Shown piece by piece: positions 1 to 16,834 of a DNA stretch of 21,728 nucleotides. The translations under genes and the position numbers were made by a program. Below the pieces are notes generated by a model. It did not search any database. It saw only the letters and a list, made by a program, of their open reading frames with translations, and was not told where the DNA came from. The first letter of the stretch is position 1. The number at the start of each line of letters is the position of its first letter. Origin of the DNA: a virus; the IMG/VR virus record IMGVR_UViG_3300025128_008524, positions 1 to 21,728 of that record, one strand, 5' to 3'.

Positions 1-723
1 TGCTATTACATCGGCACTAGACTTATCATAATATTGAATGTAGTGAGTTTTTTCTTTTTCTTGTCTACGCTCTTTCTTATCGCTATTAGGTAAAGATTGT
101 TGTGGATAATCTATCCTATTACAAAGAAAGTTAAAATGCTCTTGCAAACTTTCATACCTACCTACAAAGTTAATAAGTATTCTTAAATCTTTTGCATGCA
201 CAAACTCATATTGAGGTTTAAACCATCTAGGTAATGCTAACCCTCTTTTATGTGACAACCATAAATAACGAAGCACTTCTTCCATTTCTTTAAAGTCATG
301 GTCAACATTCAAACCATATAGCTTATTAAAATTTTCTTGTAACTTCACCTCTTCTTTAAACTTAGCCCACAGAGATACAAATCTATCCCAGGGGTTTCTA
401 ACAAAAGCAAATTTAAAGTACTCTTCAAACTTTTCACACCCGTATCCCATAGAAGCTGGTTTGGAATCTTGAGATAAGTGCTTAATAACATAATCATAAA
501 AATCTTGACCTACGTGTTGTATACCATTATCTACTTCAGCACTTTGTGCTATGTTTGGATAAAACCCATTGAGATGCCAGTCATATTTACCAAAAAAATC
601 TGAATGATCTTGAGGATGTATTCCTTCTTCGGTATCTCTATATCGCCACAAAGCATCTTGTATAGAAGAGCCACCAGTTCTAGGAATGTGTAACTGAATA
701 AATCTGTATTGTTTTGATATCAT
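1..723 (-). CDS. Sulfotransferase (Sulfotransfer_2-like), C-terminus cut by window edge
   Basis: The frame is open from the ATG at 723 to base 1, giving 241 residues with no stop. Residues 12-20 read HIPRTGGSS, the 5'-phosphosulfate-binding loop of PAPS-dependent sulfotransferases. Residues 105-119 read FAFVRNPWDRFVSLW, the 3'-phosphate-binding motif. FVGRYE at 186-191 is the usual late block of the Sulfotransfer_2 family. By family knowledge the enzyme moves sulfate from PAPS to a carbohydrate or other hydroxyl acceptor; the acceptor here is unknown. Family proteins are usually only slightly longer than this, so perhaps a few dozen residues are missing. The ATG overlaps the TGA of the upstream gene (ATGA), which suggests coupled translation. 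It ends a run of glycosyltransferase-like genes, so a sulfated glycan is a reasonable guess. Confidence 0.9.
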   Translation of the reverse strand, partial: MISKQYRFIQLHIPRTGGSSIQDALWRYRDTEEGIHPQDHSDFFGKYDWHLNGFYPNIAQSAEVDNGIQHVGQDFYDYVIKHLSQDSKPASMGYGCEKFEEYFKFAFVRNPWDRFVSLWAKFKEEVKLQENFNKLYGLNVDHDFKEMEEVLRYLWLSHKRGLALPRWFKPQYEFVHAKDLRILINFVGRYESLQEHFNFLCNRIDYPQQSLPNSDKKERRQEKEKTHYIQYYDKSSADVIA

Positions 724-3469: not shown

Positions 3470-4114
3470 CTACTGAGGGGGCGCTTCACCACCGGTAACG
3501 GTGATAGGTTCAATAATGCTAGAAAGAATCTGCGTAAACTTCGCCATACCTTCGGCGGGTTCATTCTGCTTTGCCTTAACATTAATGTGATACTTAGCAC
3601 TTTGATCAGAACTGCGTTGTGTATCCTTGCTACTAGAAACAGTACCACTCGTCTTATTCTCAGTTTGTACCGAAGTGGAAACCGAACCCTTTACGCCCCA
3701 AAAACCAAAAGAAGCTTCGGCCTTTGTATCAGTGCCTACAGAAGAAGAGCTGGTGCTTTCGCTACTATCCTTACTAGACGAACTTTCACTAGTCTTCACT
3801 TCCATCATAAAATCAATTTCCATAGTATCCAAAGTAAAGTTAGGAATAGTTACTAAGGGAAGCAAAGGCATCTGCACCTTTTGACTTAGATTAGTCATTG
3901 TGCCATCGGGTTTATTAGCCAGTCGGTCCAAATCAATATCTAACAACTTAGCTTTTCTTGAATTACTTTTACCATCACTCTCTTCAAAAGCCAGTGAATC
4001 TACAAAATCCAGCGTCACTTGAGCGAGTGCTGCTTGACCCTTGGCTGCTGAAAGCAGCGGATCTAAAATCAAACTCTCAATCGGTAAACCTACAAACGCA
4101 TCTGCAATAGCCAT
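3470..4114 (-). CDS. DUF2589-like protein, long copy
   Basis: The 214 residues match the layout I know for DUF2589. The N-terminal helix IESLILDPLLSAAKGQAALAQVTLDFVDSLAF (13-44) corresponds to the family's 'PLxAAxxAQxxLAxxTxxFI' start. The core segment MPLLPLVTIPNFTLDTMEIDFMMEVK (82-107) matches 'VPLLxxVPIPxLxIDEVxIDFxxxI'. A serine-rich, probably flexible linker (about 108-125) and a second Ser/Thr-rich stretch (about 150-168) precede a C-terminal beta/alpha piece ending EPAEGMAKFTQILSSII. A clear AGGAGAG site precedes the ATG. The biochemical role of DUF2589 is not known to me. It is paired with the related gene at 4125-4568 and shares its C-terminal E-P-x-E-G-[ML]-A-[KR] motif. Confidence 0.8.
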   Translation of the reverse strand: MAIADAFVGLPIESLILDPLLSAAKGQAALAQVTLDFVDSLAFEESDGKSNSRKAKLLDIDLDRLANKPDGTMTNLSQKVQMPLLPLVTIPNFTLDTMEIDFMMEVKTSESSSSKDSSESTSSSSVGTDTKAEASFGFWGVKGSVSTSVQTENKTSGTVSSSKDTQRSSDQSAKYHINVKAKQNEPAEGMAKFTQILSSIIEPITVTGGEAPPQ

Positions 4115-4124
4115 AACTTCTCTC

Positions 4125-4568
4125 CTAAGTCGGTATAAACTTTATAAGATTATCCTTTATACGAGCTAGCCCTTCGGGTGGCTCTTTTCCTTTAAACTTT
4201 ACTCTAATGGTAGCAAGCTCTTTGCCACCTTCCCTGTTACTAAAATCGGTAATAATCTTTCTTAACTGGCCCTGCTTCTGACCCTTACTTTTTTTATCAT
4301 TTTCACCACTGGAAAGTTTTACTTTCATCTCTACTTCTACTTCATCAATCAGTATGCCTTGATGGGGAACCAGTGAAATAGCTGGTATGTTAACGTCCTT
4401 AAGTTTTCCATCTGGCCCAGGCAACTTAACCAAAATTACTTTTGGTGTGCCATCTTTTTCAAAATAATCTTCTACTACTTCTCCAAGGTAATGAGACTCA
4501 ATTGTGTTTTGAGCTTCTACTACACTAGAATAAATACTTTGAAAAACATCATCTAATGCGCCATTCAT
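4125..4568 (-). CDS. DUF2589-like protein, short copy
   Basis: This 147-residue protein is related to the next gene downstream. It has an N-terminal helix with VVEAQNTIESHYL (16-28), a core of VNIPAISLVPHQGILIDEVEVEMKVKL (58-84) matching the DUF2589 beta segment, a lysine-rich linker, and a C-terminal VKFKGKEPPEGLARIKDNLIKFI. Compared with the long copy it lacks the serine-rich insertions. A GAGG ribosome-binding site lies 6 bases before the ATG. It is the first protein gene after the tmRNA, 97 bases downstream of the encoded CCA. The two copies probably assemble together, by analogy with tandem paralogues; that is inference. Confidence 0.75.
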   Translation of the reverse strand: MNGALDDVFQSIYSSVVEAQNTIESHYLGEVVEDYFEKDGTPKVILVKLPGPDGKLKDVNIPAISLVPHQGILIDEVEVEMKVKLSSGENDKKSKGQKQGQLRKIITDFSNREGGKELATIRVKFKGKEPPEGLARIKDNLIKFIPT

Positions 4569-4614
4569 ATAACCTCATCTTCAAAAAACTTCGTGTAAGG
4601 AAAAATTGGGGCCG

Positions 4615-4635
4615 GCCGGATTTTAGAAATCGGGC
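4615..4635. terminator. Stem-loop after the tmRNA, candidate terminator
   Basis: The plus-strand reading is GCC-G-GATTT, loop TAG, AAATC-G-GGC, giving eight base pairs around one G/G mismatch and followed at once by five T. Read on the minus strand, the direction of transcription, the same hairpin follows the tmRNA and is preceded by an A-run, with a TTTTT run 9 bases further on (4601-4605). It may end tmRNA transcription or act in both directions. The GC-rich block GGGGCCGGCCGG beside it (4608-4619) stands out in this AT-rich sequence and could extend the structure. Confidence 0.45.
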
Positions 4636-4665
4636 TTTTTGCCTCTTGACCTTAAAAACGAAAAA

Positions 4666-4951
4666 TGGTGGAGTAGCTGACATTGAAGTCAGGTCCAGCC
4701 TACATCAACGAGATCGAGATATACAAGCTTAACGTGTACTAATACTACCGACAATGCTTCTTTCTAATAACGAATAAGATAGATATGAAAGAATAAGTTA
4801 TTACTATCTATTCGGCACCAACTCTAAGCGGCTAGTGCGTATTCTGTCTGTTCTTCGGCAGATAAAAGTTTGATAAATTTTTTACGAAGTCTCTATCATT
4901 CTTCGGCTTGCCCGATTCTGGTTGTCGTACCTGTCGATACCTTTCTACCCC
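4666..4951 (-). ncRNA. ssrA: tmRNA (transfer-messenger RNA), one-piece, tag AEEQTEYALAA
   Basis: This is a complete one-piece tmRNA of 286 nt. The 5' end GGGGTAG pairs with 3' CTACTCC over seven pairs (one G-U), then A and an encoded CCA (4668-4666). The D-like segment ATCGACAGG and the block GCCGAAG...ACTTCGTAAAAA match the 5' half of E. coli ssrA. The tag frame (4859-4824) runs GCC GAA GAA CAG ACA GAA TAC GCA CTA GCC GCT TAG, encoding AEEQTEYALAA and stop, close to the E. coli tag ANDENYALAA. Pseudoknot-rich sequence follows, then GATGTAGG, GGAC and a T-arm CTGAC-TTCAAT-GTCAG. tmRNA rescues stalled ribosomes and tags nascent chains for proteolysis, with host SmpB. Oddities: the T-loop appears to be 6 rather than 7 nt, and the 5' end starts 2 bases after the upstream stop codon, implying processing from a polycistronic RNA. 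Confidence 0.97.
4824..4859 (-). other. tmRNA tag-peptide reading frame
   Basis: Eleven sense codons and a TAG encode AEEQTEYALAA. The resume codon GCC was chosen because it lies 27 nt after the CGT of the CGTAAAAA block, against 24 nt in E. coli, and because TTATCT before it resembles the UAGUC that sets the E. coli frame. The frame stays open further upstream (through KKFIKLLS), so the first codon is inferred. The terminal ALAA is a ClpXP/ClpAP-type degradation signal. Confidence 0.85.
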
Positions 4952-4952
4952 A

Positions 4953-5120
4953 TTAACCCTTAATTAATCTTTTCCCTTTGTTCTTCTTCCAATCATTTTC
5001 ACTCACTAAACTACCTGTGCCATTACAATTAGGGCAAATATCCACCTTAGTAGAATTATTAACAGGGGTTCTTATTACTTTTTCCCCCTTACAGGTAGTA
5101 CAGATTAATTTATCATTCAT
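4953..5120 (-). CDS. Small zinc-knuckle protein (DnaJ-type CxxCxG motifs)
   Basis: This 55-residue protein contains CTTCKG (7-12) and CPNCNG (29-34). They form a pair of CxxCxG motifs like one zinc site of the DnaJ cysteine-rich domain, and should bind one zinc. A lysine-rich tail follows (DWKKNKGKRLIKG). Such mini-proteins are common in phages, and their targets are usually unknown; nucleic-acid or protein binding is likely. The ATG lies one base after the stop of the basic protein gene upstream. Its TAA (4955-4953) is followed one base later by the first G of the tmRNA, so the transcript must be cut precisely to release the RNA. Confidence 0.85.
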   Translation of the reverse strand: MNDKLICTTCKGEKVIRTPVNNSTKVDICPNCNGTGSLVSENDWKKNKGKRLIKG

Positions 5121-5121
5121 T

Positions 5122-5523
5122 TTACTTTACCTTATATAACCCTCTAGCTCTACCCTTCTTGGTTGTTTTAGTAGCTTTCTTTGTAATACGAGCTTGTTTA
5201 CCCTTACGCTTAATAGCAGACTTACGTGCAATTCTTTTTGCCTGTGACGGCTTAATTTTTCTTAAATGAAGAGGTAACTTCTTCTTTCTCTTCTTAACAA
5301 CAACCAGCTTGCCACCTTTCTTACGTAATCTCTTTTTATAGCCGCCAGCACCAGGCAACATATCTTCAGTGATTTCCTTATATACTTCTTCATCTTCTGC
5401 CACCTCTGGTGCAGCAGCCAATACCTTTTTAAAAACAGGTGATTGGCTTTCTTGCATGATCCGTCTAACCTCTTCTACAACCATTTCTTTTACCAGTTGT
5501 TTAAACTCTGCTTTTGTAGCCAC
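5122..5523 (-). CDS. Highly basic protein, probably nucleic-acid binding
   Basis: This is 133 residues starting at GTG, chosen because GGAGAG lies 5 bases before it. Residues 1-25 form a likely helix (EFKQLVKEMVVEEVRRIMQ). The middle is acidic (about 40-56), and from residue 60 to the end the protein is dominated by Lys and Arg (KKRLRKKGGK, VVKKRKKKLP, RIARKSAIKRKGK and TKKATKTTKKGRAR). The basic tail resembles histone-like or DNA-condensing tails, but no family was recognised. An internal or packaged virion protein, or a nucleoid-binding protein, are both possible. The neighbouring zinc protein begins right after its stop. Confidence 0.75.
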   Translation of the reverse strand: MATKAEFKQLVKEMVVEEVRRIMQESQSPVFKKVLAAAPEVAEDEEVYKEITEDMLPGAGGYKKRLRKKGGKLVVVKKRKKKLPLHLRKIKPSQAKRIARKSAIKRKGKQARITKKATKTTKKGRARGLYKVK

Positions 5524-5808: not shown

Positions 5809-7129
5809 CAGAATAATCCACGTATTGTGCTATCATATTTATTTGAGCCTCCTTAAAATCTTCAGCCTTTTCTAAATAAAACGATAGTCTATCTTCACAG
5901 TTCTTATTAATATCATAAATATCATCCGAATATGCTTTAAGGTTAGCAGCTCTCTTTTTACCTTCCTCAAAGTTTTCTACCCAATGACTAATTGCTCGTA
6001 CCCAAGGACCAGGAGTGGCGGTACTAATAGCAAAATTCTTATGCTTAACTCTATCTGGAGCAGCTTTCCAAAAATCCTTATAGCCACCATACTCAGAAAA
6101 AACAGGAATGGCTCCGTAATGTAATGCCTCAATAATTTTAATCTCACTCTTACAAGACGAAAACGCACTATGCTCAACGTAAGCTAAACTAATATCAAAC
6201 AAGGCATTGAACTTTGCATACTCTTCCAACGGTAACGCATCAAACAATTGGATTCTATTGGGATCTATATCTTTATAAATTTCCTTAATTCTATTTTTAT
6301 AAAGCATAGATTCATCTTCAATCTCTACTTCTTTAAACTGCTTTTGACCTTTTTCATCCTCTGTAATTTCTACATGACTATCTTTCAACGCCATACCAGC
6401 AAGAACAAAATGAGTATTAGGATACTTGTCATGTATCTCTTTTATGATTCTATGCATTCTGCGAATGTCTTCAAAGTGAGAAGTAAGACCAGCCCACCCA
6501 ATAATAATCTTATCGTCCGTAGGAAACCACTGAGGCAGCATTTCTTTTCTAACTTCATTTTTATCAAGATTCCATTGAGGTAAATCCCAATCAAATTGGT
6601 TGCGAAAGATTTCTACATTATTATTAAAGTTACCAAAAGTTCTCTTTAGTTTTTCTGTAGTAGTGGTAATATAATCAGAGTGCTTTAAAGATTGGATGGA
6701 CATTTTATCTTTACCACTCTCTATCCACAACTCTTTCATTGGATGAGTATCTGGTAAGTTAAACTCATTATCGTCTGCATCATGTATAATCAATGGCCTT
6801 CTTTCAGTGCGAGGCCACATTCGTGCAACAGATAGAAAATGAGAATGAAGATTACCACACCTATGCATAATGATAAGGTCAGCAATCTTCATATGATTGG
6901 GTTGTAGATTTTCCGTATAAAGATAATTTGCTTCTTCTGGAAAAGCCTTCCAAAGTGCCTTCATTGGTTCAAATAATCTAAAATAACTGGTTCCCGTTTC
7001 GGACGGCGTGCTAAAAACAATAGTCTTTTTAGTCATATCCAAATCTTCGGGCTGTGTAAAATAATTCTTTATCTCTTCTCGTTCTTCACTATTCTTGTAT
7101 TGCGCCTTCTGCAATAATTCTTCACGCAT
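5801..7129 (-). CDS. Glycosyltransferase, GT-B fold, group 1 (GT4)-like
   Basis: This 442-residue protein fits the two-Rossmann GT-B length. In the N-terminal half, residues 35-48 (KTIVFSTPSETGTS) form the acceptor-side strand and loop; LIIMHR (85-90) and IIHDADDNEF (114-123) follow. The C-terminal half has KIIIGWAGLTSHFEDI (207-222), HFVLAGM (240-246), LFDALPLEEYAKFNALFDISLAY (295-317) and CKSEIKIIEALHYGAIPVFSEYGG (326-349), the classic donor-sugar-phosphate site with the KxxE..E pattern of GT4. Substrates are unknown. AGGAGG precedes the ATG. It is apart from the other glycosyltransferase genes (1616-3466), separated by the tmRNA and DUF2589 genes. Confidence 0.88.
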   Translation of the reverse strand: MREELLQKAQYKNSEEREEIKNYFTQPEDLDMTKKTIVFSTPSETGTSYFRLFEPMKALWKAFPEEANYLYTENLQPNHMKIADLIIMHRCGNLHSHFLSVARMWPRTERRPLIIHDADDNEFNLPDTHPMKELWIESGKDKMSIQSLKHSDYITTTTEKLKRTFGNFNNNVEIFRNQFDWDLPQWNLDKNEVRKEMLPQWFPTDDKIIIGWAGLTSHFEDIRRMHRIIKEIHDKYPNTHFVLAGMALKDSHVEITEDEKGQKQFKEVEIEDESMLYKNRIKEIYKDIDPNRIQLFDALPLEEYAKFNALFDISLAYVEHSAFSSCKSEIKIIEALHYGAIPVFSEYGGYKDFWKAAPDRVKHKNFAISTATPGPWVRAISHWVENFEEGKKRAANLKAYSDDIYDINKNCEDRLSFYLEKAEDFKEAQINMIAQYVDYSGE

Positions 7130-12653: not shown

Positions 12654-15600
12654 CTATAAAATTTTGATGCTGCTGTACCCCCTCTCATTCTTATGAATAC
12701 TTAGAACATTGTTAGTAATATCTTGCATACTTTCAATGTGAGAAATTATAAGAACATTCTCAAACTTACTTTTGAGGTATAACAACAATTGATTCATATG
12801 ATTAATGTTTTCAGAGTCAAGGGTGCCAAAGCCTTCATCAATTACAAAGAGGTTGCAAGTGGGTAAAAGACTAATATTTGATAATGCAGAACGGATTGTT
12901 AAAGCTGTCAAAGTTTTCTCCATACCAGACCCCAACTCAACTCTACGGCGCGAGGTGCCGTCATCAATAAATATACTCAAGTCGTGAGCTTCGGTATCAA
13001 CTTCAAGAGAAACTTCAAAGTTTGTTATGTTAGACAAAACCTTTCGTATTTCATTGTTAATCAAGGGTACAGCCTTATTCATAATCATTAGAGGTATGCC
13101 ATCGCTACCAAACGCATCCATCAATAATTGATGAGTACTATACTTTTTTTCTATTTCTTTTAGCACTTCAATATTACCATCAAGATCCATAATCTTTTGA
13201 CTTAAAGCACCAAGATTACTATTTTCTTTAGTATGGTTATTATTGTTATCGCGAAGTTTAATGTCTATGTCAGCTATTTTACCATCAACATTTTTTATCT
13301 TTACATCTACAGCTACATTATGTTTAATAGAGTTTTCGTTCTCCTTGTAAGTCTTCTCTTCATCTTTATAAAATGACAACTTATTTCTTTCTAACTCTAA
13401 CTGAAGTTTTATATTTTCAAAAACAATTTCTAAGTTTTCTAATTTAGACTTTAGTTCACCAACTTCTTTTTGATATTTTTCATATAATTTTTCATCTTCC
13501 GGAAAATCAGAATGCTTGTTAAGCTCTTCGCCCAAGCGCTTCTTCTCTGCTAAAGCATTCTCCACCCACTTTCTTTCTTCTACTAACTGCCCCCTTGCCA
13601 CGAAAGCGCCAGTAAGAAATGAACATTTTTTGCAAGTTTCATTTGTCTCAAACCAATCATGCTTATTAAGAATAGACGATTGTTTTTCATAAGTATTAAC
13701 CATCTGACTTTTTAAATCATACTCTGATTTAAGCTTATTATGACTTTCAACTGTATTATAGTAAATGTTTTTTCTATCTTCAAAAACACCTTTTTCATTT
13801 ATCTTAAACAACTCATCTACCCTATGTTGATGGCGAGACATCAAATCAACTTTTAACTTCTGATTAGTCTCCCAACTTTCTTCTAACTTTTCTATTGACT
13901 TATTAGATTTATTTATATCTTTTTCAATAGAATTTATTGACCTTAGCCCATCATACGTAGGATGCAATGACTTAACTAATACATCTCTGCTTTTTTCATT
14001 CTTAGAAACATCTTCCTCTAAACCTTGCCTCTCTTTATTCAATACTTTTATCTTGTCAGCAGTTTTCTTCAACCTTTCTTCATACTGACTAAGAATAGAT
14101 GGATAATCATTTTGTTGATACTCTTTTAGAATGGTACGAATAGAGGCTGTCTCATCTTTTATAGACTTTTGTAAATCATCAATAACATTTAGGCCGAGGA
14201 AACGAGCTAGCAAATCTTTTCTATTTGTTTGACCATGATCAATAAATCGTGTAATATCAAACTGTTGACTAAACGTAGTCATAGTGTGTTCTTCATATGA
14301 ACCAAGCAGATTGCGTATTGCTGCTTCGGTTTCTCTAACATTAGCTTCACCACTAATGTTAACCTTATCACCATGCACAATTTGATAAAGTTCTACTTTA
14401 TTGTTTGCACGATTTGGATTTCTTTTATTCCTCTTGAAGACTCTTTCAATTACATACTTTTGATTATCTACCGAAAACTCTATCTCAATAGAGCCTTCGT
14501 TCTGATTCTTATGAATAACATCAGCTACATTTCTACCACCAGTTCTGTTGCTACTATTGAAAAATCCTTGTAAAATAGTATATAGAATACTAGACTTACC
14601 AGAAGCGTTGGCTGAAAATATACCTGTTAACCCCTTCATCTTATCAAAGTTAATAATGTTGTTAGGTCCATAAGAGAACACATTATCAAACAAAACTTTA
14701 TGTATCACCCACTTTCTACCTTTGTATGTATCATAATCTTCAGTAGTGCAAGTGTCATAAAAATCTTTATGGATGGCAATTATTTCATTTACTTCTTGCT
14801 CAGAAATGGTGGGGCGCTTTGCAAAATATTGTTTAAGTAAATCTTGTTGAGTTTTTAAATCAGTAACATTTTCTGCCTTGCCTGACAGAGATAGGTCATC
14901 AACTGTGGATTGAACATCAACCTCAATAAATAAACCCTCTGGCTTATACTTATTTTTTATAACTGATTCTACGTGTTTGGCAGTAGTAACATTGTAATCA
15001 TCAGTGTTGAGAAGAATGCGTACATAAGGCTTGGTAGGTAGTTCAAATTCAATGTTTTCTATATTATCAATAGCGTCTTGATCTAACCTAAAAGTTTTAA
15101 ACCCCCAATCATTTGCAATCTCTATAAACATACACTTCTTTTGATCCAAATCCCAAAGAAGAAAACCTTTCTCTATCTCTTCACCAAAGTTCTGTTGAAT
15201 CAAAGAACCTGCATATGCAACCTTAATCTTTCCATTATCATCTAATATCATTGGTTGCCGTGAATGAATATCTCCCAACATACCAAAATCATAATTGCGA
15301 AATATACTCTTATCATTGTCGCTTTCAATACGATGGCTTGCACTTGTGCGACTACCATCAATTGCACCATGATAAAGTGCTACATAGTTCTTCCCATCTT
15401 GTCTATCAAAATCAATAGGCCACTGATGTTTAGTATCTTGTTGTGCAAAAATACCATACACCAATCCATCTGTAACCTCATACAAACCACTTTCTTCATA
15501 CAGATTTATAGGCTTACCATTGTTCTTTAATAAAGATACAATAGGAGATAAGCTATCTAATCTGTTATGTTGATTAATAACACAATCATGGTTCCCAAGT

Positions 15601-16805: not shown

Positions 16806-16834
16806 AATATAACTAATTTTTATGATTATGTCAA
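16806..16834 (-). promoter_or_regulatory. Sigma70-type promoter before the primase gene
   Basis: On the minus strand, TTGACA (16834-16829) matches the -35 consensus fully. A spacer of exactly 17 bases follows (16828-16812), then TATATT (16811-16806), five of six matches to TATAAT. Transcription should begin near 16799 and run into primase, Mre11-Rad50 and phoH. It lies in one of the few real gaps (16769-16844), just after the RuvC stop. Host RNA polymerase with the housekeeping sigma factor would read it, so these replication genes are probably early. Confidence 0.85.

Follow-up and report, generated by a model that had tools for sequence, protein, structure and literature searches.

A one-piece tmRNA gene kept at one site in a T4-like phage clade, with signs of allele exchange between phages

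We describe a one-piece tmRNA (ssrA) gene in a 21.7-kb virus record (21,728 nucleotides, the whole stretch that was analysed, hereafter the window). A T4-like phage clade encodes its own one-piece tmRNA, which would probably be co-transcribed with neighbouring genes, processed by the host and used to rescue ribosomes, and alleles of which would be exchanged between phages. The window gene is ordinary for a phage tmRNA; what seems new is the modular exchange to which the clade points.

Results

Identity and Anatomy of the tmRNA

In the window, ARAGORN called positions 4666-4951 (minus strand) as a one-piece tmRNA, with the tag AEEQTEYALAA followed by a stop codon. With cmscan, the same segment matched the whole RF00023 model with 79.6 bits (E 1e-29), a modest Rfam score that stands above the gathering score of 47 bits, and this was the sole match at gathering threshold in the window among the 4227 Rfam families scanned. 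A two-piece (permuted) tmRNA was ruled out by the order of the parts: 5' half, core, 3' half. An earlier note on this DNA, made from the sequence alone, had claimed a one-piece tmRNA with all landmarks and with its own tag, and had proposed a covariance model as a check; ARAGORN, RF00023 and direct reading of the sequence agree on this.

The 5' half of the tRNA-like domain together with H2 (4913-4951, minus strand, as for all parts) contains the acceptor strand GGGGTAG (4945-4951) and GGTATCGACAGG, and the 3' half (4666-4727) comprises H2, the T-arm CTGAC-TTCAAT-GTCAG (4677-4692), the strand CTACTCC (4670-4676), A73 and the encoded CCA (4666-4668). All seven pairs of the acceptor stem GGGGTAG/CTACTCC form, with G3.U70 among them, and the D-loop block TCGAC can be read directly, as can A73 and CCA. 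The T-stem CTGAC/GTCAG has five pairs and its loop TTCAAT has 6 nt instead of the usual 7, which are found in the relatives L005 and L006 (relatives are named by our contig handles). Between the two halves lies the apparently exchangeable core (4728-4912), with PK1, the tag, H5, PK2 and later structures, which is 95% identical to that of L010 and 59% to that of L003. PK1 (4871-4905; CGAAG/CTTCG and TGATAG/TTATCA) includes GTAAAAAA. At the resume site, TATCT precedes GCC, with A at -4, and the tag frame from GCC to TAG (4824-4859) was called by ARAGORN and read directly. The H5 hairpin (4815-4838; GCACTAGC/GTTGGTGC) covers the end of the tag and is followed by PK2 (4765-4814; CGAATAGATAG/CTATC-TTATTCG and TAATAAC/GTTATTA, both stems claiming one G); the helices of PK1, H5 and PK2 were assigned by hand. 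In part order, acceptor stem with G3.U70, CCA, D-loop block, PK1, tag with stop, H5 and T-arm, the molecule is like the standard one-piece bacterial tmRNA (RF00023). It differs from it in being phage-borne, in its 6-nt T-loop and in its length of 286 nt, which is short for that type.

The tmRNA Is a Conserved Gene of a T4-Like Phage Clade

The genes of the window lie on the minus strand and code for a DNA methyltransferase, a RuvC-type resolvase, a primase, an SbcC-like protein, PhoH, glycosyltransferases and DUF2589 proteins. Syntenic 40-kb relatives contribute further genes, for a DNA polymerase and for a terminase, portal and major head protein of T4-like type. Judged by terminase and portal, the closest isolates are Microcystis phage Mel-JY01 and Flavobacterium phage immuto (43-46% identity). 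Since the relatives carry these structural and replication genes and their terminase and portal resemble those of the isolates, we assign the window, by gene content and homology, to an uncultured clade of T4-like myoviruses, of which it is a fragment. The view of the earlier note that the tmRNA is phage-borne is borne out by the virus record itself, by its primase, RuvC, PhoH and SbcC-like genes and by the T4-like genes of the relatives.

Nine IMG/VR contigs were retrieved with a pattern built on the 3' region of the core, and the same nine with an independent pattern built on the tag. When the 442-aa neighbour protein served as query, four further contigs came up (L057, L058, L059 and L060), all of which carry a tmRNA at the corresponding position. 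Since all 14 clade contigs of IMG/VR that reach the site, the window included, carry a tmRNA there, the gene is conserved in this clade; L002 and L048, which end before the site, were excluded from the count. When 1.3 kb of DNA surrounding the window tmRNA was searched against phage records, nothing matched, and no tmRNA over the cut-off turned up in Microcystis phage Mel-JY01, Flavobacterium phage immuto or Rhodothermus phage RM378, the nearest isolates. Among 84,980 genomes of bacteria and archaea, the family pattern likewise found no close bacterial relative of the window tmRNA, so that no host copy was obtained by this route.

Covariation Points to a Structure under Selection

Seven tmRNAs were compared, with helices assigned by hand from the sequences. 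The acceptor stem, the T-stem, the H2 junction, both PK1 stems and H5 pair fully in all seven, and PK2-S1 does so as well apart from a single mismatch in L003; PK2-S2 was identified only in the core type of the window, where its end pair is lost in some members. Many double changes separate the seven sequences, with PK1, H5 and PK2-S1 covarying and the T-stem occurring as CTGAC/GTCAG, ATCGG/CCGAT, CGCGG/CCGCG, AAGGA/TCCTT, ATGGG/CCCAT and GGGGG/CCCCC. The 7-bp acceptor stem with G3.U70, A73 and CCA is kept in every relative compared, and some relatives have odd T-loops. G3.U70 is invariant in the seven tmRNAs even though the acceptor stem varies at positions 4 to 6. It has been shown that the third-pair G-U is a determinant for AlaRS and is completely conserved in tmRNAs (PMC3985003). 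Because AlaRS reads this pair, its invariance within a changing stem provides strong comparative evidence that the tmRNA is used.

Tags Vary within the Clade

The tag AEEQTEYALAA of the window is replaced by AEETTEYALAA in L005, L006, L007, L010 and L013, DEELEYKMAA in L004, L009 and L011, DETVEYKMAA in L003, DENTVEYKLAA in L057 and DETQEYRLAA in L059 and L060. Of these, the first two types alone were recovered by ARAGORN, and not in every contig; the remaining frames were read by alignment at the resume site, and the frames are open throughout the clade. The clade's most divergent tmRNA, at 3223-3524 of L058, scores 40.8 bits and has a very short PK1 region; its tag was read by hand as DDSYRMAA.

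The genome scan for bacterial copies of the tags covered EYKMAA: across the 84,980 genomes of bacteria and archaea, EYKMAA followed by a stop gave eight matches, none of them within an Rfam tmRNA, and a host source for this tag was thus not traced. ClpX reads the LAA end of tags, and the tag of the window retains this end. The idea of the earlier note that the phage tag could steer tagged proteins differently therefore receives indirect support at most: variation of the tags within the clade and the lack of EYKMAA from bacterial tmRNAs would speak for it, and the LAA end of the window tag against it.

Core, tRNA-Like Ends and Neighbour Gene Give Conflicting Trees

In the tree of the neighbour gene, the window groups with L003, L010 and L013 (support 100/100). 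The core tree instead separates the window, L005, L006 and L010 from L003, L004, L009 and L011 (100/100), and the tree of the tRNA-like ends gives a third grouping (98/98). In AU tests, the neighbour-gene clade was rejected by the core (p-AU 1e-4) and by the tRNA-like ends (p-AU 0.002), and with L057 and L059 added by both again (2e-5 and 2e-6, respectively), and the core-1 clade was rejected by the ends (p 0.024) and by the neighbour gene; the clades were defined with the data already in view, so that these p-values serve as a guide only, and the alignments are short (100-190 columns).

Pairwise comparisons agree with this picture. The window and L003 share 89% identity in the 442-aa neighbour gene and 80-83% in flanking DNA, and only 64% in the tmRNA. 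With L010, the window has the near-identical core mentioned above and ends that align no better than shuffled sequence, its tRNA-like ends being nearest to those of L006. L057 is 93% identical to L006 in the 442-aa neighbour gene, yet in ends and core it comes closest to L003. The trees of neighbour gene, ends and core are thus in conflict: sister phages carry different tmRNAs, and this suggests that core and tRNA-like ends are traded between phages of the clade. The imported piece in the window may extend past the gene, because the downstream spacer (4569-4665, minus strand) resembles the spacer that follows the tmRNA of L006 (score 23, against at most 14 in 500 shuffles).

Two Relatives Have Ends of Alphaproteobacterial Type

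The T-arm of L003 is GGGGGCAGTACCC, and L057 has a GGCAGAG T-loop and AAATAGGATCGAC. Both share with the alphaproteobacterial two-piece tmRNA (RF01849) a T-arm or loop of the GGGGGC type and the AGGATCGAC block. The RF01849 model itself gave 18.4 bits on the arm of L003, which is below the cut-off, and 10.2 bits on L057. The combined T-arm pattern was found in 105 of 142 alphaproteobacterial genomes, nearly always as GGGGGC, and in none of 148 genomes of Bacteroidota. This signature fits L003 and, by its loop, L057; it does not fit the window, the ends of which are of the common bacterial type. Judged by these motifs, the tRNA-like ends of L003 and L057 are of alphaproteobacterial type, in genes that are one-piece and non-permuted, unlike RF01849. 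The T-arm comparison led us to reject the assignment of the L003 ends to the type of the window, although a short tree still sets them nearer to the window than to type B. On a simple reading, the ends would be fitted to SmpB, AlaRS and EF-Tu of the host, and at least some phages of the clade would infect Alphaproteobacteria.

An Endonuclease Gene Follows the tmRNA in Some Members

Gene content downstream of the tmRNA differs between relatives, which makes its 3' flank a variable region. In the window, a DUF2589 gene (PF11655, by Pfam; 4125-4568, minus strand) lies beyond the spacer, and it is one of two adjacent DUF2589 genes, the other being at 3470-4114 on the same strand. In L005, L010 and L013, the next gene after the tmRNA codes for a putative endonuclease of the Endo VII/HNH type (phrog_3322, phrog_1035 and phrog_3118; E 5e-21 and 9e-25 for the phrog_3322 matches), with 72% identity between L005 and L013; no Pfam family confirmed it. 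The gene lies directly after the tmRNA at 177-716 (minus strand) of L013 and at 12808-13314 (plus strand) of L018, and is preceded by its own sigma70-like promoter match, the promoter-like element in L018 being TTGACTTAACGCCATCTCCGCCTTATATT. The window lacks this gene, as do most relatives.

It has been shown that, when infections are mixed, the preferential inheritance of the tRNA region of T4 depends on its SegB (PMC2988022), that amplification of a tRNA gene by SegB beats a tRNA-cutting defence (PMC13096335), and that the homing enzyme F-CphI is of the Endo VII type (PMC6083498). By analogy to SegB, the putative homing endonuclease may drive conversion of tmRNA alleles. A spacer 3' of the tmRNA, TTTGTAAAATAAACACATCTCCACC, is common to L010, L013 and L057 and similar in L005. 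Because in L057 this shared spacer runs straight into a spacer of the L006 type, the junction looks like the scar of a lost endonuclease gene.

The tmRNA Adjoins an Upstream Coding Sequence

Directly upstream of the tmRNA lies a gene for a 55-aa CXXCXG zinc protein (4953-5120, minus strand; DnaJ central domain, below the cut-off), which is conserved in all relatives checked, and the second upstream gene codes for a 133-aa basic protein (5122-5523, minus strand). The earlier note had placed the 5' G of the tmRNA two bases after the stop codon of the zinc-protein gene; the adjacency holds, and the spacing is one base between the TAA and the G at 4951. In all nine contigs mapped, the tmRNA starts 2-15 nt past the upstream stop codon.

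A promoter scan of the window found no minus-strand promoter near 4951 above chance, the total being 11 matches against 13 in shuffled sequences; a sigma70-like promoter adjoining the tmRNA was therefore rejected. The closest weak minus-strand matches lie near 6279 and 6474, and the nearest strict upstream match on the same strand outside any reading frame, TTGACA-17-TATATT at 16806-16834, is a consensus match only. With matches at chance level and a 5' end that adjoins a stop codon, the tmRNA has no visible promoter of its own and appears to be embedded in a coding transcript, as the earlier note had it. The same note had offered RNase P or a phage-guided cut for its release. Since RNase P processes the 5' ends of tmRNAs (PMC3985003), it would be the expected route here too, and nothing that we found points to a phage-guided cut.

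Discussion

How the Phage tmRNA Might Work and Spread

According to the explanation that we favour, the tmRNA would be transcribed together with the upstream genes and most likely excised by the host enzymes for tRNA, with RNase P cutting at 4951 and the CCA end already encoded. Host AlaRS would charge it via G3.U70, and host SmpB and EF-Tu would deliver it to stalled ribosomes; SmpB of the host is assumed because no SmpB gene was found in the 11 virus records searched, all of them partial. Addition of A-AEEQTEYALAA to the unfinished protein would then free the ribosome and mark the protein for proteases of the ClpXP type. As the earlier note proposed, such an RNA may stand in for a degraded host tmRNA or hasten the recycling of ribosomes. 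The clade always keeps a tmRNA at this site and would exchange its alleles, either as a whole gene or as core against tRNA-like ends, and the putative homing endonuclease gene directly downstream in some members would be the likeliest driver of exchange.

The modest Rfam score, the 6-nt T-loop, the odd T-loops in relatives and the divergent ends could suggest a decaying host-derived copy that is unused, or an assembly artefact. This is highly improbable, since all stems pair in the relatives with compensatory changes, save for the PK2-S1 mismatch of L003 and about one at the end of PK2-S2, the gene is kept with an open tag frame in every contig that reaches the site, and independent contigs share mosaic alleles (L010/L013, L009/L011 and L006/L007). 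Retention of pseudoknots, resume site and tag frame also argues against a dominant interferer, which would divert SmpB or ribosomes from the host tmRNA with no rescue for the phage and which alone would not need these parts. Short molecules of the type of the DS6A phage tmRNA, with a tRNA-like domain only, do inhibit the host system (PMC4131195, PMC11915505), and the clade tags were unlike bacterial ones in the one case tested (EYKMAA); even so, interference seems improbable to us.

The conflicting trees might also arise with no recombination, if the core were more constrained and the ends evolved fast to suit hosts. Within the core type of the window, cores are indeed about 90-95% identical while the ends differ. 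However, core types that are about 40% apart cut across the neighbour-gene tree, and the downstream spacer of the window also matches L006. Moreover, in bacteria the tRNA-like domain is conserved and the pseudoknot region variable (PMC3985003), so that the recombination of core and ends proposed here would be the reverse of the usual pattern; constraint is very unlikely to explain the trees. As to transcription, a phage-specific promoter within the upstream genes could drive the tmRNA alone, with no long coding transcript. Matches to TTGTAT-17-TATAAT about 150-180 nt upstream of the tmRNA, inside coding sequence, in L004, L009 and L011 speak for it, and phage promoters need not resemble sigma70. 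But there is nothing comparable in the window, and the 5' end would still sit inside a leader needing RNase P, and we think such a promoter rather unlikely.

Going beyond the favoured explanation of a host-processed rescue RNA with exchanged alleles, we tentatively raise the possibility that the tmRNA is a diversifying module, its tag and ends being swapped as cassettes, aided by the neighbouring homing endonuclease, to fit new hosts or to escape a host factor that attacks tmRNA. If this were true, the tags would be phage-specific signals and not copies of host tags.

Relation to Known Systems

Phage tmRNAs have so far been catalogued and hardly explained. A list of phage tmRNAs is given in PMC4131195 and those of huge phages in PMC7162821, the known cases include the mycobacteriophage Bxz1 group, Bacillus phage G, huge phages and the OM43 phage Melnitz (PMC4131195, PMC7162821, PMC9004378), and tmRNA is counted in 402 of 18,146 phage genomes (PMC9004378). 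Like these, the window carries a full tmRNA within a phage genome; the tmRNAs of Melnitz and most marine phages are two-piece, whereas that of the window is one-piece. The portions of the three sources available to us contain neither exchange of core and ends nor a clade-wide fixed locus with varying tags, and no report of a recombining or mosaic phage tmRNA was found in the literature searched, which comprised papers outside subscription. The nearest parallel is the tRNA region of T4 with SegB (PMC2988022, PMC13096335), where RNA genes of a T4-like phage also lie beside a free-standing homing-type endonuclease, which spreads the region in mixed infections; in contrast to SegB, the putative enzyme of this clade is of the Endo VII/HNH type, lies next to a tmRNA and is present only in some members.

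A fixed locus with swapped modules and tag is itself evidence for use of the RNA, and two questions become testable: do phages select a degradation tag of their own, and must the tRNA-like ends match the host? Apart from this clade, a 112-nt tmRNA-like match that lacks the core (RF00023, 58.2 bits) was observed at 1501-1612 of L027 (LR756508.1, 414804-414915). The molecule may consist of a tRNA-like domain only, like that of mycobacteriophage DS6A, and the 484-kb uncultured phage that bears it also has a full tmRNA (L025, ARAGORN tag GRRKPLSW).
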